Notes: generated by a model from the letters alone, not told the origin. Counted from the stretch's first letter, positions 8,062 through 28,820 are shown. The stretch is 64,000 nt of DNA from Elizabethkingia sp. YR214 (GCF_003058195.1 NZ_QBUH01000003.1:434001-498000), one strand, 5' to 3'. Numbers and translations: made by a program.

Positions 8062-9606
8062 ATGAAAAATAAATTCTCTTTGTTCTTTTTTGTGGTATCT
8101 GTTGTTTTTATCAATGCACAGGTGCCAGATGCAAAACTCGATGAATTGGTAAAGAATACACTGAAGACTTTTGATGTACCCGGAATGTCTGTGGGTGTTG
8201 TAAAGGATGGTAAACTAATCTATGCAAAAGGATTCGGGGTAAGATCTCTGAATACAAAGGCTGCTATGGATGAGAATACACTTGTAGGAATCGCTTCTAA
8301 TTCCAAAGGTTTTACCGCAACAGCATTGGCAATATTGGCAGATGAAGGAAAACTAAATTGGAATGACAAAGTGACCAAATTTATTCCGGAATTCAGAATG
8401 TATGATCCTTATGTTTCTCAGGAAGTGACTATAAAAGATCTTATTACTCACCGTGCCGGTTTAGGTTTGGGACAGGGAGATTTAATGTTCTTTCCGGAGG
8501 GTGGAAACCTTACAGTGAATGATATTGTACATAATGTACGTTATCTAAAGCCTGCAAATCCTTTCAGAACCAAGCTGGATTATAATAATATCATGTTTAT
8601 TGTAGCAGGGGAAGTTATCCACAGAGTTTCAGGACTAAGCTGGGCAGAGTTTATTGAACAGAGAATTATGAAGCCTGTAGGAATGTCAAATAGTTTTGGA
8701 TCTTATAACAGAGCAAAAGCGGTAACGAATAAAATTGATGCACATGCTCCTGTAAATGGTAAAGCTGTAGCTGTTCCACATGACTGGAATGAAACGGCAA
8801 ATGCGGCAGGCGGAATTATGAGTAATATTCCGGATATGACAACATGGGCCAATTTTCTAATCAATGGTTTTGTAACTAAAGACGGGAAACGCCTGGTTTC
8901 TGAAAAGAATGCACACGAATTATGGAGTTTGCAAATACCAGAAAGTATAGCGGCTAAAAATCCATATGATTCTAATTTCTACGGATACGGAATGGGATGG
9001 TTTCTTAGCGATGTGAAAGGACATCTGCAGGTTCAGCATACAGGTGGGCTTATTGGTACTGTTACTCAGTTTACTCTGATTCCGGATCTTAAATTAGGAA
9101 TAGTTGTATTGACCAATCAGCAATCGGGAGCAGCATTTAATACAATCACTAATACAGTAAAGGATTCTTATCTTGGAGTTCAGGGCAGAGACTGGCTGAA
9201 GAATTATGGTGATCGTATGGCAAAAGTAAATGCCAATTACGACAAAGAGAAAAATGAGGTGTATACAAAGGTAGAAGCTGCACAGAAAAATATTCAGCAG
9301 TTAGCAAAACCGGAACAATTCACCGGAACATATAACGATGTTTGGTTTGGTGATGTAATAGTGAAGCAGGAAGGGAAAAAGTACTTTATTTCCTGTGCAA
9401 ACTCTCCAAGACTAAAAGGTGAGTTATTACCTTATTCTTATAATACGTTTGTAGCAAGATGGGATGACAGAAGCTACGATGCGGATGCTTTTGTAATCTT
9501 TAATTTTGATGAAACAGGAAAGGCACAGTCTGCAAGACTAAAACCTATTTCGGGAGTAACTGACTTCAGTTTTGACTTTGAAGATTTGGATCTGAAAAGA
9601 AAGTAA
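8062..9606 (+). CDS. Secreted SxxK serine hydrolase (class C beta-lactamase/PBP4* family) with C-terminal beta domain
   Basis: A 514-residue exported protein; the signal peptide ends FINAQ. The serine-hydrolase core spans about residues 22-370 and has the three family motifs: SNSK (Ser79, Lys82), YNN (Tyr174), and HTG (His326). Family members are penicillin-binding-protein-like esterases, D-amino-acid peptidases or beta-lactamases. Nothing here decides the substrate. Residues about 400-510 form an extra beta-rich domain like the DUF3471-type domain often attached to these enzymes. A long-stem terminator follows at 9636. A second, shorter member of the same superfamily is encoded at 14049. I would not call it a resistance gene without activity data. 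Confidence 0.88.
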   Translation: MKNKFSLFFFVVSVVFINAQVPDAKLDELVKNTLKTFDVPGMSVGVVKDGKLIYAKGFGVRSLNTKAAMDENTLVGIASNSKGFTATALAILADEGKLNWNDKVTKFIPEFRMYDPYVSQEVTIKDLITHRAGLGLGQGDLMFFPEGGNLTVNDIVHNVRYLKPANPFRTKLDYNNIMFIVAGEVIHRVSGLSWAEFIEQRIMKPVGMSNSFGSYNRAKAVTNKIDAHAPVNGKAVAVPHDWNETANAAGGIMSNIPDMTTWANFLINGFVTKDGKRLVSEKNAHELWSLQIPESIAAKNPYDSNFYGYGMGWFLSDVKGHLQVQHTGGLIGTVTQFTLIPDLKLGIVVLTNQQSGAAFNTITNTVKDSYLGVQGRDWLKNYGDRMAKVNANYDKEKNEVYTKVEAAQKNIQQLAKPEQFTGTYNDVWFGDVIVKQEGKKYFISCANSPRLKGELLPYSYNTFVARWDDRSYDADAFVIFNFDETGKAQSARLKPISGVTDFSFDFEDLDLKRK

Positions 9607-14048: not shown

Positions 14049-15419
14049 ATGAAAAAAGTTATAATCCTTTTTATAGCTGTATCGAGCTTTGTCTATGGAC
14101 AAAAAGAAAAGAAATTGGACAGTCTGTTTACTTCATTATATACAGCCAAAGAATTTAACGGAAATGTCCTTATTGCAGAAAAGGGGAAAGTAGTGTATGA
14201 GAAAAGCTTTGGACTGGCTAATGAAAAAACAAAGCAGAAGCTGGACAAAAATACGGTTTTCGAATTAGCATCGGTTTCGAAACAATTTACTGCTATGGGA
14301 ATCGTCCAGCTGGAGAAAGAAGGTAAACTTGGTTACAACGATCCTCTCACTAAATATTTTCCGGAACTTAGTTTTTATGAACCTATTACCATAGATAATT
14401 TGCTCTATCATACATCCGGACTACCAGATTATATGGGGCTGTTCAATAAAAACTGGGATAAAACAAAGTTTGCGACAAATAAAGATATCGTAGAAATGTT
14501 GGCAAAATATAAGCCAGAGCTTTTATTTATACCCGGAGATAAATACGAATACAGCAATACAGGATATGCTTTATTAGGCTTAATTATCGAGAAGACATCA
14601 AAACAATCTTATGGTGATTACTTGAGCAAAAAAATATTCAAGCCTCTTGGGATGACTAGTACCAGGGTTTATAGAAGTCGGTATAAACCAGAAAAGATTT
14701 CCAATTATGCACTAGGTTATGTTATAGACAGCCTTGGAAATAAAAAATTGTTGGATGATCTGGGGAAGGAATATTATACTTATTATCTGGATGGTATTGT
14801 AGGTGATGGTATGGTGAGTTCCACAACGGGTGATCTGCTGAAATGGGACAGAGCTTTGTATGGAGACAAGCTGGTTAATCAGAAAGATAAAGATCTTATT
14901 TTTAGTTCCATAATTACTAAAGATAATAAAGATACTCGGTATGGCTATGGCTGGGCTATTGATACAAAAGATCCATTTGGGAAAATAGCAAATCATTCCG
15001 GTGGCTGGGCAGGCTATATAACTTTTATCGAAAGAGATTTGGATCATGATAAAACGATTATTATGCTGCAAAATAATAATTCGGAAGCTACATCTTCACC
15101 AGTTAAACAGTTAAGAAATATTCTTTACGATATAAAACCAGTTAAGGTAGATATTAGTTTACTACAAAAATATGCCGGGAAATATATTAAGAAGAACAGC
15201 AAAACATTTGAGGTATTTTTTGAAAATAACAAACTGTTTGTACCGTTGAATCCGCAGATAAAGTTAGAATTGGAAGCTATCAGTACTAGCAAATTTAAAG
15301 TCAGAGATTTTAGCCCAGATGTTTTTTATGAATTTAAAATTCTGGATGATGGTAGTATAAAATGCAATATGTCGCAGCCTGCACATAATATGAATGAAGA
15401 GGGAGTTAAAAAAATATAA
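14049..15419 (+). CDS. Secreted SxxK serine hydrolase (beta-lactamase/PBP4* superfamily)
   Basis: A 456-residue exported enzyme-like protein; the signal peptide ends SSFVYGQ. Motifs: ASVSKQF (Ser75, Lys78), YSN (Tyr168) and HSGG near residue 318. An extra C-terminal beta-rich region of about 85 residues follows the core. Compared with the protein at 8062 the SxxK motif is the commoner SVSK form and the spacing is shorter. It is a paralogue of the same superfamily but not a recent duplicate, as little sequence is shared outside the motifs. The substrate is unknown; esterase or D-peptidase activity is as likely as beta-lactamase activity. It has its own promoter box and terminator. Confidence 0.88.
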   Translation: MKKVIILFIAVSSFVYGQKEKKLDSLFTSLYTAKEFNGNVLIAEKGKVVYEKSFGLANEKTKQKLDKNTVFELASVSKQFTAMGIVQLEKEGKLGYNDPLTKYFPELSFYEPITIDNLLYHTSGLPDYMGLFNKNWDKTKFATNKDIVEMLAKYKPELLFIPGDKYEYSNTGYALLGLIIEKTSKQSYGDYLSKKIFKPLGMTSTRVYRSRYKPEKISNYALGYVIDSLGNKKLLDDLGKEYYTYYLDGIVGDGMVSSTTGDLLKWDRALYGDKLVNQKDKDLIFSSIITKDNKDTRYGYGWAIDTKDPFGKIANHSGGWAGYITFIERDLDHDKTIIMLQNNNSEATSSPVKQLRNILYDIKPVKVDISLLQKYAGKYIKKNSKTFEVFFENNKLFVPLNPQIKLELEAISTSKFKVRDFSPDVFYEFKILDDGSIKCNMSQPAHNMNEEGVKKI

Positions 15420-17565: not shown

Positions 17566-18450
17566 ATGCTACGTACACTACTATATACACCTCTACTTTT
17601 TAGTCTTATTTTTTGTACCCCAAAAGCCCAGGAAACTCAAAACACATCAGAAAGCTTTGGACCATTACGTACAGTATCTAGATTTCCTAAGAAAATAAAA
17701 GAAGTTTCAGGAATACAGATTTCACCAGATGGTAAGGAATTTTACGTTCATGAAGACCAGGGAAACAGCAACGTGATTTTTGCAATAGATATGAGTGGAA
17801 ACAATACCCGGACTATAACCATTGAAGGTATAGAGAATAATGACTGGGAAGATATTACACAGGATAAAAATGGTTTTACTTATATTGGTGATTTCGGAAA
17901 CAATAATAATGATCGCAAAAATTTAGCTATCTATAAAGTGAAAATCGGCAAAGAAAATAGCACGCCTGTTTTGCAGGCGACCAAATTTTCTTATCCTGAG
18001 CAGACAGAATTTCCACCAAGTAAGAAAAACTTATTATACGACTGTGAGGCATTTATAGAACATAACGGCTACTTTTATCTCTTTACTAAAAACAGAAGTA
18101 AGAAATCTGATGGTACTTCGCTGGTATATAAAGTTCCGAATAAACAAGGTGAATTTAAAGCTCAGTTAGTTGGAAAACTAAAGCTGCCGGAGAAATATCA
18201 TGACGGAGCTGTTACAGGCGCTGATATAAGTCCGAACGGGAAAAAAATAGCGTTAATAACACATAAGAATGTTTTTATCCTGGAAAATTTTGAAGGAGAT
18301 AACTTTACGAATGCTAAAATGACCCAAATAGATTTGCAGAGTAACTCCCAAAAAGAAGGAATTTGTTTTGCAACCGATACAATACTTTATATTGGAGAGG
18401 AAAGAAACAATAAAGATGAAGGTATACTTTATTCGATGGAACTGAAGTAG
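17566..18450 (+). CDS. Exported beta-propeller-like protein of unknown function
   Basis: A 294-residue exported protein. The N-terminus is hydrophobic (LLYTPLLFSLIFC) and ends either at a Cys (LIFC, a poor lipobox) or at KAQ. The mature part has repeated strand patterns with Asp/Asn/Gly turns: VSGIQISPDGKEFYVHEDQG, NNDWEDITQDKNGFTYIGDFG and TGADISPNGKKIALITHKN. These are blades of a propeller, similar to SdiA-regulated/phytase-like domains, and the calcium-like acidic loops are visible (DQGNSN, DFGNNNND). I cannot assign a substrate. It converges on a minus-strand membrane protein gene with only 22 bases between them and no clear terminator. Confidence 0.72.
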   Translation: MLRTLLYTPLLFSLIFCTPKAQETQNTSESFGPLRTVSRFPKKIKEVSGIQISPDGKEFYVHEDQGNSNVIFAIDMSGNNTRTITIEGIENNDWEDITQDKNGFTYIGDFGNNNNDRKNLAIYKVKIGKENSTPVLQATKFSYPEQTEFPPSKKNLLYDCEAFIEHNGYFYLFTKNRSKKSDGTSLVYKVPNKQGEFKAQLVGKLKLPEKYHDGAVTGADISPNGKKIALITHKNVFILENFEGDNFTNAKMTQIDLQSNSQKEGICFATDTILYIGEERNNKDEGILYSMELK

Positions 18451-18989: not shown

Positions 18990-21900
18990 TTAGAATCTTA
19001 GTCCTATGCCTGCAGAAAATCTTCCGCCATCGCTTCCTGTAAAATAAGTAGCCCGTGCAGAGAACGCTTCGAGTATACTTACCCATATTCCGCCACCTAC
19101 AGACTGGTGCCATTTTCTGGAATATTCACCATCCATCCAGACACGTCCATAGTCATAGCCAGCTAAGATACCAAAATTTACCGGGATTACACGATTCCGC
19201 ACTCTCCCGAAGTTCCAACGGATATCATTACTCTGAAATAATGAAGAATTACCCAGAAATCTGTTATTTCTGAAAGATCTTATATCATTGTTTCCACCTA
19301 AATCAGCGCCTTGGAAAAATTCGAAGTAGCGGTTGTTAATATAAACACCCTGTATCTTTGTTGCAAAGACAAATTTTCCATCATCATCTATCCGGTGTGT
19401 AACATTCAGACGTGCATCATAAGTCATGAAATTACGATTTGGATTATCAATGTTCATTCTCCATGCAGCAGAAACAGAAAAACCAAATGCCATAGTTGGG
19501 AAAGCAGCGTTGTCACTATGGTCGTAGCTGAAATTATATTTTGCACCTAAAAATTGCTGATTATCGAATACTTCGGGATTAATCTGACCAGACTGTGTAA
19601 TAAAACGATTCTTATTATGATGTACCTTATAATCCTCATAGCCTAACTGAAATGTCTGAACAAATCCCATAAAACTTTTTTTAGATATGGAAGGTGCTAT
19701 CTGCAGCTGTTGTATGTTTACCCTGTTGTAGTTTCTGCCCAGTTCATCATCGTAATTAGCCGTATTATTACCAAAACCAAAATAGTTTTGTGCAAAATCC
19801 GGAGTAGTAAAACGACCGTCTAAATGCAGTGTCCATTTTCCAATAGCATTAGGAAATATACCATTATAAATAAACTCTATTCCACTCGTAGCAAAGGAAT
19901 AATTAGTTTTAAATGTGTGTCTGGATGTGTAAGGATCTCTTTCGAAACCATTATGCGTATAGTTGACAACAGCGCCAACCTTAACACCTTCATCGGGGTT
20001 ATAGCCTATACTAGGATACCCCGCCCAGAAGTTGTACTGAGGCTTTTCAAAGTTATAGGTGTTAATATCATAATCATCTTTAATTTGTTTTGCTACATAT
20101 CCGGTAATGTTATACGTGTTTTTCTGAGATTTAAAATCATATAACTTAACATTTCGGCCATCTTTAATATTGTATACATCATCATTAAGCCCACCGATAA
20201 GTCTTATTTTTATTCCGGAATTTTCTGAGCCAGATACGTCGAATATATCATCATCATCCAGTCCGTAAATCCAGATTTCTTTGGTGTCATGTTTAGAATA
20301 TTCACGTTTGAAAACCAATTCGTTTCCTTCTTTCTTTACGCGGTATTGCAGAACACTGACTTTATGTTTTTCCTTTTTGATAACAAATCTGTCAATCTTG
20401 TTGGTACCGGTAATCATAACCGTTTTTTGTAAAGTTTTATAGTATTCCGCAGCATACTGAGCCATTTTATCTCTTCTGATTTTCAGATTTTGCTTTATGT
20501 GCCCTATGGTACCGTCTTGTACTTCTTTTGGAAGATTATGAAATGCATTGTCTATAACCTCATCGGTCATATTTTGCTGTATGTATTCTGCTTCTTTTTT
20601 CCAGTCTTCTTCAGTAGCATTTTTTAGGAAAGCCAGATCTAACGGATAAGGTTCTCTGTTTAGCCATTTTATATTACGAATATCTTCTTTGAAGCTCTGC
20701 ATATGGCGTAATGGAGGCATTTGCATAATGAACTTAAATAGAAGTCCGTCGTATTTACTGAATGCCTGATCTCTGTCTTTTGGGATGGCTTTATACGCAT
20801 AGGAGTTTCCATCTTTGTACTCTGCCCAGCGCCATTGATCGTAATGTCTGTCCCAATCGCCAAGAAGCATATCGAAAATACGGGCGCGGATATAGCTCTG
20901 CTGATCCACAGAATACTTTTCGGACTTCTGCAGATTATTCATCATATCCAAAGTATTCATCGTTGTGGTAGCTCCATTTAGCATTTTAAGATCATCCGGA
21001 CTATCCGAGAATCGTTCTTCAATCATATAGAGTTCATCACCATAGTCGTAATTGAAATCTCCTAATGCCCTTTGTCTCGGAACATAATAAAGTAAAGGGT
21101 CTGAATGAAAGACATTGATACTTTCTGCGAGATTGCCTACAGCAAATGGAGTATACGGATGTGTTGTTGTATAAAAATCGAGTAGGAATTTTTCAGCGAA
21201 AGTTCCTTCCAGTTCATGACCAAAGCTTTCATTTTTAAATGCAACAGCATTCAGAAATCGAATAGCACTTTTCTTTACTCCTCTCATCGCATATTCCTGG
21301 TTGTTTGGTGCAGCTAAACGTAGTGAGTTAGATTGGTGTCCGCCACCAGCCCGGATAGGGCTAAGTCCGCCTTTTAGCGTGTCGAGAGTTGCAACCTTAG
21401 CTTCTATAGGCATACTGTAGTATTTCCTGTAATGGTCTCCCCAAAGCCAGGTATATACTTTTGATTTTTGAGTAAGTTTTTCCGGGTATACTGAAGTTTT
21501 TATTGAATCAGAAAACGTATCCGGATATTTTCCGGGAGCAGGTCTCTGTAGGTTTTCCAGAACTTTAATCTGAGTTAAGAAATTTTCTGTATTATTTTCT
21601 GTGCTATAATAAGATACATTGGCACTACCATCCTGGTTGATATCTAAAACAGCATAACCGTTACCCCCAAAAGTAAAGTCTTTCGGAGTTGTCGCTTTTG
21701 CTGCTTCGTTTTTAGAACCGGATCCGCTAATAATCTGACGGATATTTCTTTCCTCGAGGTATTGCAGATTGTGATCGTGACCGGATACAAAAATTACATT
21801 CTGATTATCCTGTGCAAGACTTTTCAGTCGCTTTACCAATGCTGTATATCTTGCATTATTAAGATCCTGAGGACTGATGCCGGATGTCGCACGAACTACA

Positions 21901-22685
21901 TTGATAAATGAACCTATAACAGGAAGTGGAACTTTATCGCCAATAGGATAAAGCTGTTTTTTTAATGAAAAATACCCGGCATGGCTACCACTACTGATTA
22001 GCGGGTGGTGCAATGCAACCACAATAGGCTTATTCTGATTCTTATTCAGTAAGTTTTCGAATTCATCAAAAAAATCATCCCGTGTTTTGATGCTGCAATC
22101 TGCATTCATCCCTGGGTTTTCATCCCAGTTTTGCAGATACCATTCACTGTCAATGGTAATAAGGGTAAGATCATTATTTAGTTTTACCTTGTCTATTGGG
22201 CAACCCTTTTTAGGCAGAAAAGCTTTTTTATTATCCAGGTATTTTGCAACTGCTTTTTCCTGAGCTTTTAATCCATCTAAACCATAATACCAGTCATGAT
22301 TTCCGGGGATTACAATTGTATTTCCTTTGTAGTCTTTGGTTATTTTTAGCTGATTTTCCAGTTTAAGATTTGCTAGGTCATAACCTGGATCTTTTTCACC
22401 AGGCATTCCCAAAGGATAAATATTGTCTCCGAGAAATAAAAGTGTAGAGTTAGGAGAAGCTTCTTTAAGCCTTTTCTGAAGGAGGTTTAGCGTATTCTGT
22501 GCCTGAGGTTCGTCTGCATTTCCGGCATCACCAATCAGGAAAAACCGATGGGCAACTTTAGAAGAATCCCGTACAGGTATTTCGGCGAGATTTTTCCCTT
22601 TTTGTACAGTATATGTGGCACATGACTGCAGTGTAATTCCAAAGATTGAAACTTTTAAAAAATTGGAAAGCGTATTTTTTAGCAT
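18990..22685 (-). CDS. Large lipoprotein: metallophosphoesterase + kinase-like region + outer-membrane barrel
   Basis: A 1231-residue protein from the ATG at 22685 (an in-frame ATG 18 bases upstream is less likely, as the lipoprotein signal with ITLQSC fits the shorter form). Residues about 45-325 are a calcineurin-like metallophosphoesterase: FFLIGDAG, LGDNIY, IPGNHDWYYG, LHHPL and SGHDHN are all there. Residues about 440-720 contain elements resembling an atypical (CotH/Fam20-like) kinase: glycine-rich GGGHQS, Lys in MRGVKK, GDWDRHYDQW (about 610-618) and KDRDQAF (about 636-642). This assignment is my inference. From about residue 885 to the end are repeated amphipathic strands ending in Phe, with IRSFRNNR, similar to an Omp85/BamA-type barrel. 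The barrel probably sits in the outer membrane with the rest in the periplasm. Confidence 0.75.
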   Translation of the reverse strand: MLKNTLSNFLKVSIFGITLQSCATYTVQKGKNLAEIPVRDSSKVAHRFFLIGDAGNADEPQAQNTLNLLQKRLKEASPNSTLLFLGDNIYPLGMPGEKDPGYDLANLKLENQLKITKDYKGNTIVIPGNHDWYYGLDGLKAQEKAVAKYLDNKKAFLPKKGCPIDKVKLNNDLTLITIDSEWYLQNWDENPGMNADCSIKTRDDFFDEFENLLNKNQNKPIVVALHHPLISSGSHAGYFSLKKQLYPIGDKVPLPVIGSFINVVRATSGISPQDLNNARYTALVKRLKSLAQDNQNVIFVSGHDHNLQYLEERNIRQIISGSGSKNEAAKATTPKDFTFGGNGYAVLDINQDGSANVSYYSTENNTENFLTQIKVLENLQRPAPGKYPDTFSDSIKTSVYPEKLTQKSKVYTWLWGDHYRKYYSMPIEAKVATLDTLKGGLSPIRAGGGHQSNSLRLAAPNNQEYAMRGVKKSAIRFLNAVAFKNESFGHELEGTFAEKFLLDFYTTTHPYTPFAVGNLAESINVFHSDPLLYYVPRQRALGDFNYDYGDELYMIEERFSDSPDDLKMLNGATTTMNTLDMMNNLQKSEKYSVDQQSYIRARIFDMLLGDWDRHYDQWRWAEYKDGNSYAYKAIPKDRDQAFSKYDGLLFKFIMQMPPLRHMQSFKEDIRNIKWLNREPYPLDLAFLKNATEEDWKKEAEYIQQNMTDEVIDNAFHNLPKEVQDGTIGHIKQNLKIRRDKMAQYAAEYYKTLQKTVMITGTNKIDRFVIKKEKHKVSVLQYRVKKEGNELVFKREYSKHDTKEIWIYGLDDDDIFDVSGSENSGIKIRLIGGLNDDVYNIKDGRNVKLYDFKSQKNTYNITGYVAKQIKDDYDINTYNFEKPQYNFWAGYPSIGYNPDEGVKVGAVVNYTHNGFERDPYTSRHTFKTNYSFATSGIEFIYNGIFPNAIGKWTLHLDGRFTTPDFAQNYFGFGNNTANYDDELGRNYNRVNIQQLQIAPSISKKSFMGFVQTFQLGYEDYKVHHNKNRFITQSGQINPEVFDNQQFLGAKYNFSYDHSDNAAFPTMAFGFSVSAAWRMNIDNPNRNFMTYDARLNVTHRIDDDGKFVFATKIQGVYINNRYFEFFQGADLGGNNDIRSFRNNRFLGNSSLFQSNDIRWNFGRVRNRVIPVNFGILAGYDYGRVWMDGEYSRKWHQSVGGGIWVSILEAFSARATYFTGSDGGRFSAGIGLRF

Positions 22686-22729
22686 ATAAACTTTGAAATG
22701 CATAATTTTATCTAATCAAATTCGACAAA

Positions 22730-23896
22730 ATGACTCTAGTTCAAAAAGCAGGTTTCTTTATCGAAAACTTATTCAAAGATAAGTTATCTCCGGCATTTCT
22801 TTATCATAATTATAAGCATACGCAGGAAGTTGTTGCAAATGCTGAGATTCTTGCGTATGCTGATAATCTGAATGAAGAAGAGAAAGAAATATTGCTGGTT
22901 GCATGCTGGTTTCACGACAGTGGCTATACAGAAGATATTATGCTGCATGAAGAAAAAAGTTGTGAGATTGCAGCAAAGTTTTTAAAAGCAGAGGGCGTAA
23001 ACGAAGACTTTATCCGGAGGGTAAAGGAACTGATTATGTCCACAAAAATCTGTTGTAAACCGGATAACCGAATTGAAAATATTATCCGTGATGCAGACAG
23101 TAGTCATTTGGCAAGTGAAGATTATTTCACTTACTCGGATAATCTGAGAAAAGAATGGGAGCAAACGCTGGGGAAAGACTTCAGTAAAAAGAAATGGAAT
23201 TTAGATAATTTACGTTTTTTCAGGTTTCATCAGTTCAATACAGATTATGCAAAGCAGAATTGGAACCCTATAAAAGAAAAAAACCTTCAGAAGATTGAAA
23301 ATATGTTACAGGAGCAGGAAAATATAAAGAAAGATAAAAATAAGAAAGAACCTAAAAAGGAAGCTAAAGCAGACAGAAGTATAGATACAATGTTCAGAAT
23401 TACGCTGAGCAATCATACAAGACTAAGTGATATTGCAGACAGTAAAGCCAATATATTGCTTTCGGTAAATGCTATTATTATTTCTATCGCATTATCTACA
23501 CTCTTACCCAAGCTGGGATCTGAGAAGAATGAGTATTTGGTGATGCCAACCTTTATTATGCTGCTGTTTAGTGTTATCACAATTATATTTGCTATACTTT
23601 CTACAAAGCCTAAGGTTACCAGTGGTGAGTTTACGAAAGAAGATCTGAAAAACAGAAAGGTGAATCTTCTATTCTTTGGTAACTTCTACAAAATGAATCT
23701 GGACGACTATACACCGGCAGTACGGGAGATGATGGAGGATCGTGACTATCTGTATGATTCTATGATCAGAGATTTGTATTACCTGGGAGTTGTTCTAAAC
23801 AGAAAATACAGATTGCTTAGTATTACCTACCAGATCTTTATGGTTGGAATTATTGTTTCTGTTGTCGCTTTTGTTTTTGCCTTTTGGACGAGTTAA
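22730..23896 (+). CDS. HD-domain protein with Pycsar-type membrane effector domain (PycTM/DUF5706)
   Basis: A 388-residue protein in two parts. Residues about 20-180 are an HD phosphohydrolase domain: YHNYKH (His30), CWFHDSGY (His62-Asp63) and RDADSS (Asp121 or 123). A charged linker (KKDKNKKEPKKEAK, about 200-214) joins it to a membrane domain at about 220-385 with helices near 241-260, 272-291 and 367-385, starting SNHTRLSDIADSKANILLS. That domain is the family annotated as Pycsar system effector (PycTM, DUF5706), which in phage-defence loci acts on the membrane after binding cCMP or cUMP. No cyclase gene is visible nearby, so a defence role is not shown. It is divergent from the large lipoprotein gene with only 44 bases between starts. 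Confidence 0.85.
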   Translation: MTLVQKAGFFIENLFKDKLSPAFLYHNYKHTQEVVANAEILAYADNLNEEEKEILLVACWFHDSGYTEDIMLHEEKSCEIAAKFLKAEGVNEDFIRRVKELIMSTKICCKPDNRIENIIRDADSSHLASEDYFTYSDNLRKEWEQTLGKDFSKKKWNLDNLRFFRFHQFNTDYAKQNWNPIKEKNLQKIENMLQEQENIKKDKNKKEPKKEAKADRSIDTMFRITLSNHTRLSDIADSKANILLSVNAIIISIALSTLLPKLGSEKNEYLVMPTFIMLLFSVITIIFAILSTKPKVTSGEFTKEDLKNRKVNLLFFGNFYKMNLDDYTPAVREMMEDRDYLYDSMIRDLYYLGVVLNRKYRLLSITYQIFMVGIIVSVVAFVFAFWTS

Positions 23897-26223
23897 TCCG
23901 GAAGCTGGCAAGTTATTTCTATAGCTTTATTTCTGTTAAGACCTACGCGTAGCGCTTTTAGTCCACTTGCTCCCGGTAGTTCTTCTACTTCCAGTTTTTC
24001 AACTTCAGAAGTAAGATAGGCTTTTTCCTGTAGCCTTTGTATATAGGAATAGTATTCCTTTTCATCCTCGTTAGAAGAATATACGATACAGATTTTTCCG
24101 GGCTGTGTAATTCTTTCAGTTGTATTTTTAATATAAGCCTTGTCAATACGTTTCTTGATGACCTCGTAACGAGAATTGTATGCGCCGTCTACATCAAAAC
24201 GTTTTTCGTCCATACGGAAGCGTATGGATAATGACACATTGAATACCAGTATAAGAGAATGTACATCAAGATTATAAGGCAGGCAGGATTTTATGGACTC
24301 ATGGGATAATTCCATTTCACATAATGTTTCCAGTTGCCAGTATCTTAACTGATGTAAAATTTCTTTAGAGTAATTCTGTGTAGGATTTATGGATTGCCCT
24401 ACATATATATTGTGCTCTACGCCATCGGTTTTGAAAAGTTCAAAATAATGTGGAAAAATAAGTTGAGCTTCCTGTTCTCTTTTTTCCAGAAGGCTGGCGA
24501 AATTTTTATTAACAGTACTAACTGTTTCATCAAAAGCCTTTCTTTTTTTATAAAGAAGTTGTCCGTTTGAATCTAGCAGGCTGAAATAATTTTTTATCTC
24601 AGGAGAATTATTTCCTTCCAGTTCAGGATGTACTTTATTGGCCAGAAAACGTATAACTCTCTGTTCTGTATCTGTTTTCATACCTATTTCAACCTCTTCT
24701 GTAAGAATTTTCAGTCCAAATAAGATTTTCTCATTGACTGCTTTTTCATCTTTTAGATTTTCATAAATAGAGATTAGTCTGTTCAGTTGCTCCAGAAGAT
24801 CTTCCTGCTGAGCTTTGTTTCGTATACTGGATGAAGATTTGATGTCTGTTTGTCCGTATAAAGGATAAACATGATCGAAAGATATTTCTTTCAGACTATA
24901 TTCCTCATTTCGCAAGTTTCCAAAGAACGCATTTTGCGCTTCGTCACGGAATTTCCAGGCAACACTTGGATGAAGGGAAGTATATTCCTGCTGAATAATA
25001 GCATCCAGTTTTGTCTGCCATTCATAATGAAATCTACTGATAGAAAATAATAAGAAAGGCGTAATAAAGTCCAGTTTTTTTACTTTCAGACTGTTAAATG
25101 CACCTTTAATGCCAGATGACATCTCCAGAATAGCGAGTAGCTGATTGTCCTTTACCACAGGAATCATAATGAAGCTATGTACATTATGTTCTATGAAATA
25201 ACTGGAGATAAACTGAAATTTCTCCGAATCGGCATATTTATAAACATCAGAAACAACAATAGGTTTGTTGCTTTGTGCCAACGCTTCATAAGCTTCTTTA
25301 CCAATTGCATCAAAGCCTAGTTTATCATAAAGAAATTCTAAAATAGAGCTGGAGAAAAGAGCGCGATTGTTTTGAAGTTTTTCCAGTCTGTTTTGTTCAT
25401 GATTAAAGAACATAAACCCGGTGCGAAGATCCGGAATCTCGAAATAAGAACGCAGGATAGGTTCGAAGCTATTGTCCAAGGCTCCTGTTTCAGGATCTAT
25501 ACTCAGCAGATTCGACTTTAACTCGGAAAGAGAGAAATCTGGTGTTACATCTGTCAGACTAATAATGAAGAAACCTTTTAGTATCCAGCTTCCGGGAGGA
25601 AATTTGGTTTTCCAGAGATCTATATTTTCATAGTTGTCCAGAAGAAGCTCTATTTCATCATCATTCAGAAAATGTGCTTTTTCTGTAGGAATAGTTTCGG
25701 TAAAATCAGCATTTATGGTTAGGCGATAGTGTCTTACAATTCCTTGTTTATCAGGGATATCGAAATACAAAGGAGTCGTAGTTTTTATTTCTTTTTTGAA
25801 GTATGTATGAATAATCACAACACAATTCATAATGTAGAAATAATCATCATCTAAATCCCGTATTTTGATTTCGAAACTCTGGCCAGCATCTGACAATAGT
25901 TTTTTAAACCTTTCTGTGTAGTTAAATGTAAGATTGAAGAAAGGAATACTAGCTGCTTTTATTTCATTATTGGTTAAAGCAGTCGGGAATAGATCGGCAA
26001 GGAGTTGGTGTATAAGTCCTTCGTTATTACGAATAACATCTACATCATCGAAACCTTCTCTGAGTTCAGGAACTTTATCTACTTTATCTAAAAGCGCACG
26101 GGCGTATTCGGATCTGTAAGATTCCGGATCCTGATCCCGTATTTTTTCCAGCACCTCAATATACTTATGAAATGCGATACGCAGTATAAAAGGTGATTCT
26201 TTCTCCTGAAGCATAGCATGCAA
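23893..26223 (-). CDS. GAF-domain protein, cytoplasmic, unknown role
   Basis: A 776-residue soluble protein with no signal peptide or membrane helix. Residues about 250-400 look like a GAF domain: FEIPDLRTGFMFF, QSNKPIVVSDVYKYAD, IEHNVHSFIMIPVVKDNQLLAILEMSS and a final KLDFITPFLLFSISRF helix. The N-terminal 250 and C-terminal 370 residues are conserved-looking but I do not recognise them; the C-terminal part has long charged helices. No histidine-kinase, GGDEF or cyclase catalytic motif was found. Its stop codon overlaps by 4 bases with that of the HD/Pycsar gene, so the two converge. The start is ATG 26223; ATG 26214 is an alternative. Confidence 0.75.
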   Translation of the reverse strand: MHAMLQEKESPFILRIAFHKYIEVLEKIRDQDPESYRSEYARALLDKVDKVPELREGFDDVDVIRNNEGLIHQLLADLFPTALTNNEIKAASIPFFNLTFNYTERFKKLLSDAGQSFEIKIRDLDDDYFYIMNCVVIIHTYFKKEIKTTTPLYFDIPDKQGIVRHYRLTINADFTETIPTEKAHFLNDDEIELLLDNYENIDLWKTKFPPGSWILKGFFIISLTDVTPDFSLSELKSNLLSIDPETGALDNSFEPILRSYFEIPDLRTGFMFFNHEQNRLEKLQNNRALFSSSILEFLYDKLGFDAIGKEAYEALAQSNKPIVVSDVYKYADSEKFQFISSYFIEHNVHSFIMIPVVKDNQLLAILEMSSGIKGAFNSLKVKKLDFITPFLLFSISRFHYEWQTKLDAIIQQEYTSLHPSVAWKFRDEAQNAFFGNLRNEEYSLKEISFDHVYPLYGQTDIKSSSSIRNKAQQEDLLEQLNRLISIYENLKDEKAVNEKILFGLKILTEEVEIGMKTDTEQRVIRFLANKVHPELEGNNSPEIKNYFSLLDSNGQLLYKKRKAFDETVSTVNKNFASLLEKREQEAQLIFPHYFELFKTDGVEHNIYVGQSINPTQNYSKEILHQLRYWQLETLCEMELSHESIKSCLPYNLDVHSLILVFNVSLSIRFRMDEKRFDVDGAYNSRYEVIKKRIDKAYIKNTTERITQPGKICIVYSSNEDEKEYYSYIQRLQEKAYLTSEVEKLEVEELPGASGLKALRVGLNRNKAIEITCQLPD

Positions 26224-26705: not shown

Positions 26706-27713
26706 ATGAAAACCGCAAATTTTTCTTTTGCATTATGCCTTTCTGTGGCTATAATGTTATTTATCAAATGTACAAGAAGCGAACAAGATCTGTCAGTAAC
26801 TAAGGATACCTCTGCGCAGAAATCCGGAGTTACAGTATCAGCACTTAATCTAAGCGATCTTATTGCTTACAAAAACAGTGATCACCAGATTTCGGCTGGT
26901 TATTACAGAACATGGAGAGACAGTGCTACAGCAAGTGGCAATCTCCCAAGTATGAGATGGCTGCCGGATAGCCTGGATATGGTAATGGTTTTTCCGGATT
27001 ATACTCCTCCGACAAATGCATATTGGAATACCTTGAAAACTAATTATGTTCCTTATCTTCATAAACGAGGAACTAAGGTTATTATAACATTAGGAGACCT
27101 GAACAGTGCAACAACTACGGGCGGACAAGACTCTATAGGTTATTCTTCATGGGCCAAAGGCATTTATGATAAATGGGTAGGTGAGTATAATCTGGATGGA
27201 ATCGACATTGATATTGAAAGTAGCCCGAGCGGAGCAACGCTGACTAAATTTGTTGCGGCAACCAAAGCATTGTCTAAATATTTTGGTCCTAAATCAGGTA
27301 CAGGGAAAACATTTGTATACGATACCAATCAGAATCCTACCAACTTCTTTATTCAGACGGCTTCCCGATACAATTATGTATTCCTTCAGGCATATGGAAG
27401 AAGTACAACTAACCTTACAACTGTCTCCGGACTTTATGCACCATATATCAGTATGAAACAGTTTTTACCTGGTTTTTCTTTTTATGAAGAAAATGGATAT
27501 CCTGGAAATTATTGGAATGATGTAAGGTATCCTCAGAACGGAACAGGCCGTGCATACGATTATGCCCGCTGGCAGCCTGCGACAGGCAAGAAAGGCGGAG
27601 TATTCTCTTATGCTATAGAAAGAGACGCACCACTAACGTCTTCTAATGACAACACGCTTCGTGCACCTAACTTCCGAGTGACAAAGGATCTGATAAAAAT
27701 TATGAATCCTTAA
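26706..27713 (+). CDS. endOF2: Endo-beta-N-acetylglucosaminidase F2 (GH18)
   Basis: A 335-residue secreted glycosidase that I recognise, from memory, as Endo F2, which cuts the chitobiose core of Asn-linked glycans and prefers biantennary complex types. A long export signal of about 45 residues precedes the mature start at ALNLSDLIAY, leaving 290 residues. A Cys in the signal (LFIKC) is not a good lipobox. The GH18 motif DGIDIDIE is at residues 164-171, with the catalytic Glu171. Three Asp-Ser sites, RDSAT (73), PDSLD (89) and QDSIG (143), match the O-glycosylation consensus reported for secreted proteins of this organism. A few residues differ from my memory of the E. meningoseptica enzyme. 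endoF3 follows by 117 bases. Confidence 0.96.
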   Translation: MKTANFSFALCLSVAIMLFIKCTRSEQDLSVTKDTSAQKSGVTVSALNLSDLIAYKNSDHQISAGYYRTWRDSATASGNLPSMRWLPDSLDMVMVFPDYTPPTNAYWNTLKTNYVPYLHKRGTKVIITLGDLNSATTTGGQDSIGYSSWAKGIYDKWVGEYNLDGIDIDIESSPSGATLTKFVAATKALSKYFGPKSGTGKTFVYDTNQNPTNFFIQTASRYNYVFLQAYGRSTTNLTTVSGLYAPYISMKQFLPGFSFYEENGYPGNYWNDVRYPQNGTGRAYDYARWQPATGKKGGVFSYAIERDAPLTSSNDNTLRAPNFRVTKDLIKIMNP

Positions 27714-27758
27714 TAAGTTTTATATCAACCTTGGACCAATTCCGATTTCAGAAATTTT

Positions 27759-27781
27759 TGCATTGAAATATTTTCATTGCA
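27759..27781. promoter_or_regulatory. Imperfect palindrome between endoF2 and endoF3 (operator-like)
   Basis: Arms TGCATTGAAA (27759-27768) and TTTCATTGCA (27772-27781) around TAT; 9 of 10 positions are paired (the mismatch is at the fifth base of each arm). It has no T-tract. It lies 50 bases before the endoF3 start, where a regulator could bind. No similar dyad was found before endoF2. Confidence 0.45.
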
Positions 27782-27821
27782 GCAAGGGTTGGTTTCTATT
27801 ATAACACTAATTATTAAATAA

Positions 27822-28820
<999 letters not shown>

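Follow-up and report, generated by a model that had tools for sequence, protein, structure and literature searches.

The 64-kb window analysed here (the whole stretch of 64,000 nucleotides, NZ_QBUH01000003.1:434001-498000, from Elizabethkingia sp. YR214, GCF_003058195.1) carries a minus-strand gene (18990..22703) whose product combines, in order, a lipoprotein signal, a purple-acid-phosphatase-like domain, a predicted kinase fold, a beta-rich linker and a 16-strand barrel of the Omp85 type. We consider it fairly probable that this protein is anchored in the outer membrane and acts as an extracytoplasmic phosphotransfer enzyme, with two predicted catalytic domains on one scaffold. This interpretation draws on structural models, on the conservation of candidate active-site residues, and on the architectures and gene neighbourhoods of the homologues.

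A predicted kinase fold beside a phosphatase domain

The open reading frame (ORF) is uninterrupted from 18990 to 22703 (minus strand) and encodes 1237 aa, numbered here from its first ATG. A preliminary description of the locus had placed the gene at 18990-22685; its end was correct, while 22685 proved to be the second in-frame ATG, and the ORF begins at the upstream ATG at 22703. The number of residues ahead of the lipobox Cys in Chryseobacterium homologues is about that obtained from the upstream ATG. The genome is 4.05 Mb in size and 99.98% complete, harbors the gene in single copy, and has Chryseobacterium (Weeksellaceae) as its closest relative in the tree. All of the motifs quoted in the preliminary description were located: LQSC (residues 25-28), GDAG (58), GNHDW (134) and GHDHN (308) in the first part, and GGGHQS (453), MRGVKK (473), GDWDRHYDQW (615) and KDRDQAF (642) in the middle part. 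As they are among the best-conserved positions across homologues of 23-56% identity, these motifs stand above chance. The lipobox, within the signal peptide (22620..22703, minus strand, as are all features of this gene), likewise occurs in many fused homologues. Pfam recognised Metallophos at residues 53-248 and a ShlB/Omp85 barrel near the C-terminus of the ORF; residues 396-800 of the window protein gave no Pfam match, and neither Pfam nor NCBIfam has a model for the domain in between. The full-length structural model reached a pLDDT of 84.9 and a pTM of 0.81.

According to its predicted structure, the middle domain (residues ~396-760; 20424..21518) is a kinase fold. An AlphaFold (AF2) model of residues 396-820, built on the window sequence aligned with 49 homologues from named genomes, had a pLDDT of 91.8 and a pTM of 0.90. 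In a Foldseek search against the PDB, CtkA was the top match (E 1e-6), followed by Rio2, CotH, HipA and Fam20C, and the best 50 rows obtained with VIA-align were all kinases (PI4K/PI3K-like, CotH, CtkA, HipA or Fam20). The highest VIA-align scores were those of PI4KIIbeta (4wtv; Z 14.8, root-mean-square deviation (rmsd) 4.5, 252 aligned), CotH (5jda; Z 14.7, rmsd 4.3, 252 aligned) and CtkA (3akk; Z 13.9, rmsd 4.3, 234 aligned), followed by HipA (2wiu; Z 11.8, rmsd 4.6, 226 aligned) and by Fam20A (5wrr) and Fam20C (4kqb), both with Z 10.7. In these models PI4K type II, CotH and CtkA differ by less than one Z unit, too little to rank them as the nearest fold, and Fam20 is further away. Thus the earlier guess of a CotH- or Fam20-like kinase, drawn from motif order, is supported for the predicted kinase fold and for CotH, while Fam20 is more distant and PI4K type II and CtkA are equally near.

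Each of these relatives differs from the window protein in its setting. PI4K type II (4wtv, 4yc4) has a catalytic-loop pattern similar to that of the window domain, but shares only 9% identity with it, is eukaryotic and works at the cytosolic membrane face, and PF00454 gave no match to the window protein. The catalytic loop and the DxD metal motif of the CotH spore-coat kinases align with the window domain, although those kinases are without a barrel or phosphatase. CtkA is secreted as an effector and HipA acts as a toxin in the cytoplasm; the window protein has no HipA_C match. The Fam20 secretory-pathway kinases likewise present a kinase fold outside the cytoplasm, but are not membrane-barrel proteins.

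Sequence comparisons support the kinase fold weakly, but at the right place. The profile match to CtkA fell precisely over LGNFDRHNGNW (E 0.37), which aligns with LGDWDRHYDQW of the window protein. With hhalign, the comparison to CotH scored 30.2, placing GDWDRH on 'gNwD' and IPRDRDQAF on 'iPyDydntfG', and that to HipA scored 25.9, with GDWDRH on NxDxHxKN; 19 unrelated alignments scored at most 21.8, and 60 column-shuffles of the CotH and HipA comparisons at most 19.0. CotH (PF08757) was not matched by Pfam in the window protein, and none of 46 family members rose above its cut-off (best E 0.013); no match to HipA (PF07804) or PI3_PI4_kinase (PF00454) was listed for any of the 46. A survey of 148 Bacteroidota genomes detected no PF00454 kinases, and there is thus no support for the domain having been borrowed recently from that family. 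Matches in BFVD were distant kinases and uncharacterised phage proteins; as to a role in defence, PADLOC returned only weak PDC-M03A matches for the window protein.

Conservation was assessed in 41 fused sequences of less than 60% identity, with 33 kinase-barrel proteins counted separately, and active-site residues were placed by profile and motif alignment. R474, K478, D509, D611, D616, D643 and D645 are invariant in the fused proteins (41/41 each), D618 and R619 are kept in 40/41, and the GGG of the glycine-rich loop GGGHQS (453-458; 21330..21347), a strand-loop-strand in the model, in 39-41/41. K478, the candidate ATP-binding Lys, lies at the end of a strand (R474 to K478; 21270..21284), and R474, in mid-strand, is an equally conserved candidate for a phosphate contact. 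In the catalytic-loop-like GDWDRHYDQW (615-624; 20832..20861), D618 aligns with the Asp of CotH gNwD, of HipA NxDxH and with D155 of CtkA; in the metal-site-like KDRDQAF (642-648; 20760..20780), D643 aligns with CotH 'iPyD'. The Lys expected near residue 471 and the Asp residues expected near 612 and 637 therefore correspond, after a six-residue shift, to K477/K478, D618 and D643. The preliminary description had named two outcomes as refuting a kinase, namely an unrelated predicted fold for this region and poor conservation of the Lys and Asp residues; both were checked and neither occurred, and the kinase-like interpretation of the middle domain is supported.

The first domain (residues ~50-385; 21549..22556), correctly described earlier as a calcineurin-type metallophosphoesterase, is a purple-acid-phosphatase-like hydrolase by its fold and metal ligands, and its activity is predicted. 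In addition to the PF00149 match (E 1.4e-10), its model matched purple acid phosphatase/TRAP (2bq8) with Z 29.4 (rmsd 2.9, 269 aligned, 22% identity). The predicted metal ligands are D59, D93, Y96, N135, H232, H309 and H311, and the purple-acid-phosphatase ligand set including Tyr96 is kept in 22/26 fused and 6/6 stand-alone sequences. The domain thus shares with the known enzymes (2bq8, 1ute) the fold and the ligand set, including the Fe-binding Tyr, but differs by its fusion to a kinase fold and a barrel.

The barrel and its Omp85 relatives

The C-terminal part (residues ~891-1237; 18993..20033) is an Omp85-like barrel ending in Phe, as had been proposed. Pfam matched PF03865 and PF01103 (E 4e-7 and 9e-6; PF01103 with 25.8 bits against a cut-off of 24), the full model contains 16 strands, and the best structural matches were TamA (4n74, Z 27.5) and BamA (Z ~26). 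An L6-like motif reads IRSF in the window protein and LRGFR in the family consensus, compared with (V/I)RG(F/Y) in the Omp85 L6 pattern. The barrel is preceded by a segment (residues ~761-890; 20034..20423) that DSSP assigns as a beta-rich linker. Membership of the Omp85 superfamily is defined by at least one POTRA domain, which is absent in the noNterm subfamily; none was recognised in the Pfam scan or the full model of the window protein, in which the linker was not folded or searched alone. Compared with TamA and BamA, the window protein has the 16-strand barrel in common (Z 26-27) but carries enzyme domains instead of recognised POTRA domains. It also differs from the type Vd proteins (PlpD-like; patatin, POTRA and barrel), as Pfam found no patatin domain in it.

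The 'Metallo' subfamily of Omp85 proteins was described by Heinz and Lithgow (2014; PMC4104836) as PF00149 plus a barrel. By this definition the window protein belongs to the subfamily, but it differs by the purple-acid-phosphatase-like nature of its PF00149 part and by the kinase fold before the barrel. That paper termed PF00149 a metalloprotease domain and discussed periplasmic quality control or surface delivery, and neither 'kinase' nor 'phosph' occurs in its text; contrary to that label, PF00149 comprises the calcineurin-like phosphoesterases. In the literature searched, which covered few subscription papers, a kinase fold was not reported for this family. A Riemerella metallophosphoesterase virulence factor (cited in PMC10281475, and among the effectors of the type IX secretion system (T9SS) in PMC10202324) was also considered and set aside as a different protein that is secreted through the T9SS.

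Distribution, architectures and gene neighbourhood

Of the 395 Bacteroidota genomes sampled, 144 carry the kinase-fold domain, representing 74 of 171 genera, and a profile from a 12-row alignment recovered at least 585 confirmed stretches with the domain from the genome collection. The single-gene architectures observed were phosphatase-kinase-barrel (~1240 aa), kinase-barrel (~860 aa) and kinase alone (423-545 aa). At two loci (L033 and L034) the kinase, phosphatase and barrel are encoded by three consecutive genes, and at a third (L089) a gene of the SdiA-regulated family is followed by a phosphatase gene and a kinase gene at the contig edge; these arrangements indicate that the three parts belong together. 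The stand-alone kinases and phosphatases mostly carry lipoprotein or Sec/transmembrane signals, by a crude test that misses some. In a quick tree, which is indicative, the three-part label changed at least six times on well-supported branches.

In two genomes of one family (L256 and L257), stand-alone kinase-fold genes with lipoprotein-like signals occur as divergent pairs. In one copy at L256 the catalytic Asp is replaced by Ser (D618S), a substitution that suggests an active/inactive pair. No relative was found in viral contigs or phage records, and the five relatives in plasmid records are all from Bacteroidota. One of these (L266), on a 174-kb plasmid record of Parabacteroides distasonis (NZ_OY725747.1), is a kinase-barrel relative of 819 aa by coordinates, annotated as hypothetical and adjoining galactose genes; plasmids of Hymenobacter and Persicobacter carry further kinase-fold homologues.

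Clustering of the ORFs around 147 loci revealed recurrent neighbours: an HD-PycTM protein (96 loci), a GAF protein, SdiA-regulated/phytase-like propellers, the polyphosphate kinase (PPK) PPK1 and a SixA-like phosphatase. In the window, the HD plus PycTM (Pycsar effector transmembrane domain) membrane protein recognised by Pfam is encoded divergently at 22730..23896 (plus strand) across a 26-bp gap. It is kept beside the kinase-fold gene across the phylum, the 96 loci being those with it in the fetched flank. On the other side, at 17566..18450 (plus strand), lies a member of the propeller lipoprotein family with 49% identity to its Chryseobacterium counterpart, and a 776-aa GAF-domain protein (23893-26223, minus strand), recurrent in Flavobacteriales, shows 46% identity to a Flavobacterium neighbour.

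PPK1 was located within 12 kb of the kinase-fold gene in 24 of 71 genomes (one or few per genus), compared with 0.7 expected from 1.5 copies per 4.2 Mb; as the genomes are related, the 11 families that these 24 represent are the safer measure. RecA, used as a control, was within 12 kb in none of the 71, the nearest being 12.4 kb away. Two loci (L041 and L042) show the order HD-PycTM, SixA, PPK1, kinase-barrel, propeller; at others, a stand-alone phosphatase adjoins PPK (L086), and a stand-alone kinase gene has an H+-pyrophosphatase close by and PPK at a distance of 6 kb (L031). Three genomes (G166, G072 and G387) each contain two long-architecture kinase-fold paralogues, each near a different PPK paralogue.

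Elsewhere in the window, two adjacent genes (26706-28820, plus strand) match the TIM barrel of EndoS-type endo-beta-N-acetylglucosaminidases (E 1.5e-85 and 2.4e-18), and two serine beta-lactamase-family proteins (8062-9606 and 14049-15419, plus strand) are each followed by DUF3471, the second match being below the cut-off.

Proposed role and alternative explanations

In the mechanism that we propose, the N-terminal lipid and the C-terminal barrel would tether the protein to the outer membrane, and both enzyme domains would, by analogy with other Omp85 proteins, hang in the periplasm. Given its fold and active-site pattern, the second domain may belong to the atypical kinase superfamily (PI4K type II/CotH/CtkA/HipA) as a catalytically competent enzyme. 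The most likely task of the two domains would be to transfer phosphate, reversibly or in sequence, on a lipid, glycan or protein of the envelope, within a phosphate/polyphosphate system. The link to polyphosphate is based on the phylum-wide neighbours, namely PPK, the SixA-like phosphatase, HD-PycTM and the phytase-like propeller, and the PPK-gene neighbourhood suggests a novel phosphate-handling system outside the cytoplasm.

Several observations weigh against this interpretation. The profile-profile probabilities from hhalign are, taken alone, low (8% and 2.5%), and the periplasm is poor in ATP. The single PPK of the window genome lies 24 kb off, and in the Chryseobacterium and Flavobacterium relatives PPK is far from the gene; the polyphosphate link is thus not tight in this lineage. 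Furthermore, Q623 (Gln in 39/41 and Asn in 2/41 fused proteins) replaces the metal-binding Asn of related kinases, and about one third of the shorter kinase-barrel proteins lack one or more putative catalytic residues (26/33 retain D618, and 26/33 retain D643). The domain can therefore serve without catalysis, and some kinase-barrel members are probably pseudokinases. These last two points favour an alternative in which the domain either transfers a group other than a gamma-phosphate (e.g., AMP, in the manner of SelO) or, as a pseudokinase, binds nucleotide or polyphosphate and controls the phosphatase or the barrel; the near fixation of R743, G653, D611 and R608 even where the catalytic residues degenerate agrees with it. 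However, K478, D611, D616, D643 and D645 are invariant and D618 nearly so in the fused proteins, which is the pattern of an active enzyme, and we regard this alternative as possible but somewhat unlikely.

The barrel could instead act as a translocator of the PlpD-like type Vd, exporting the phosphatase and kinase to the cell surface. An Omp85 barrel behind an N-terminal enzyme resembles PlpD, and surface delivery is one of the options that Heinz and Lithgow (PMC4104836) raised for the 'Metallo' subfamily; but no POTRA was recognised, many fused members have a lipid anchor at the N-terminus, and kinase and phosphatase also exist as lipoproteins apart from the barrel, so that we think this unlikely. 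Pure phosphate scavenging, with phosphate freed by the phosphatase and passed on by the barrel and with the kinase-fold domain serving as a structural spacer, would suit the well-supported purple-acid-phosphatase domain. Kinase-barrel and stand-alone kinase genes nevertheless occur without a phosphatase, and the kinase residues of the fused proteins are conserved at least as well as the phosphatase ligands, making such a role quite improbable. We give similarly little credence to the more far-reaching idea of a periplasmic kinase whose phosphate donor is polyphosphate or pyrophosphate, via the neighbouring PPK1, rather than ATP, and that writes and erases envelope phosphate with the fused phosphatase; if true, it would represent an energy-carrying phosphorylation system outside the cytoplasm.

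Taken as an outer-membrane-anchored phosphotransfer enzyme, the protein bears on bacterial phosphorylation beyond the cytoplasm, which is poorly understood and takes place where ATP is scarce. Here one chain joins a metal phosphatase and an outer-membrane barrel, with a conserved kinase fold between them, and the PPK, SixA-like phosphatase and HD-PycTM context leads to a testable hypothesis of polyphosphate- or phosphate-linked phosphorylation in the envelope. If true, the idea of extracytoplasmic kinases developed for Fam20 and CotH would extend to the outer membrane of Gram-negative bacteria, and an Omp85 subfamily that has been described without being explained would gain a function.

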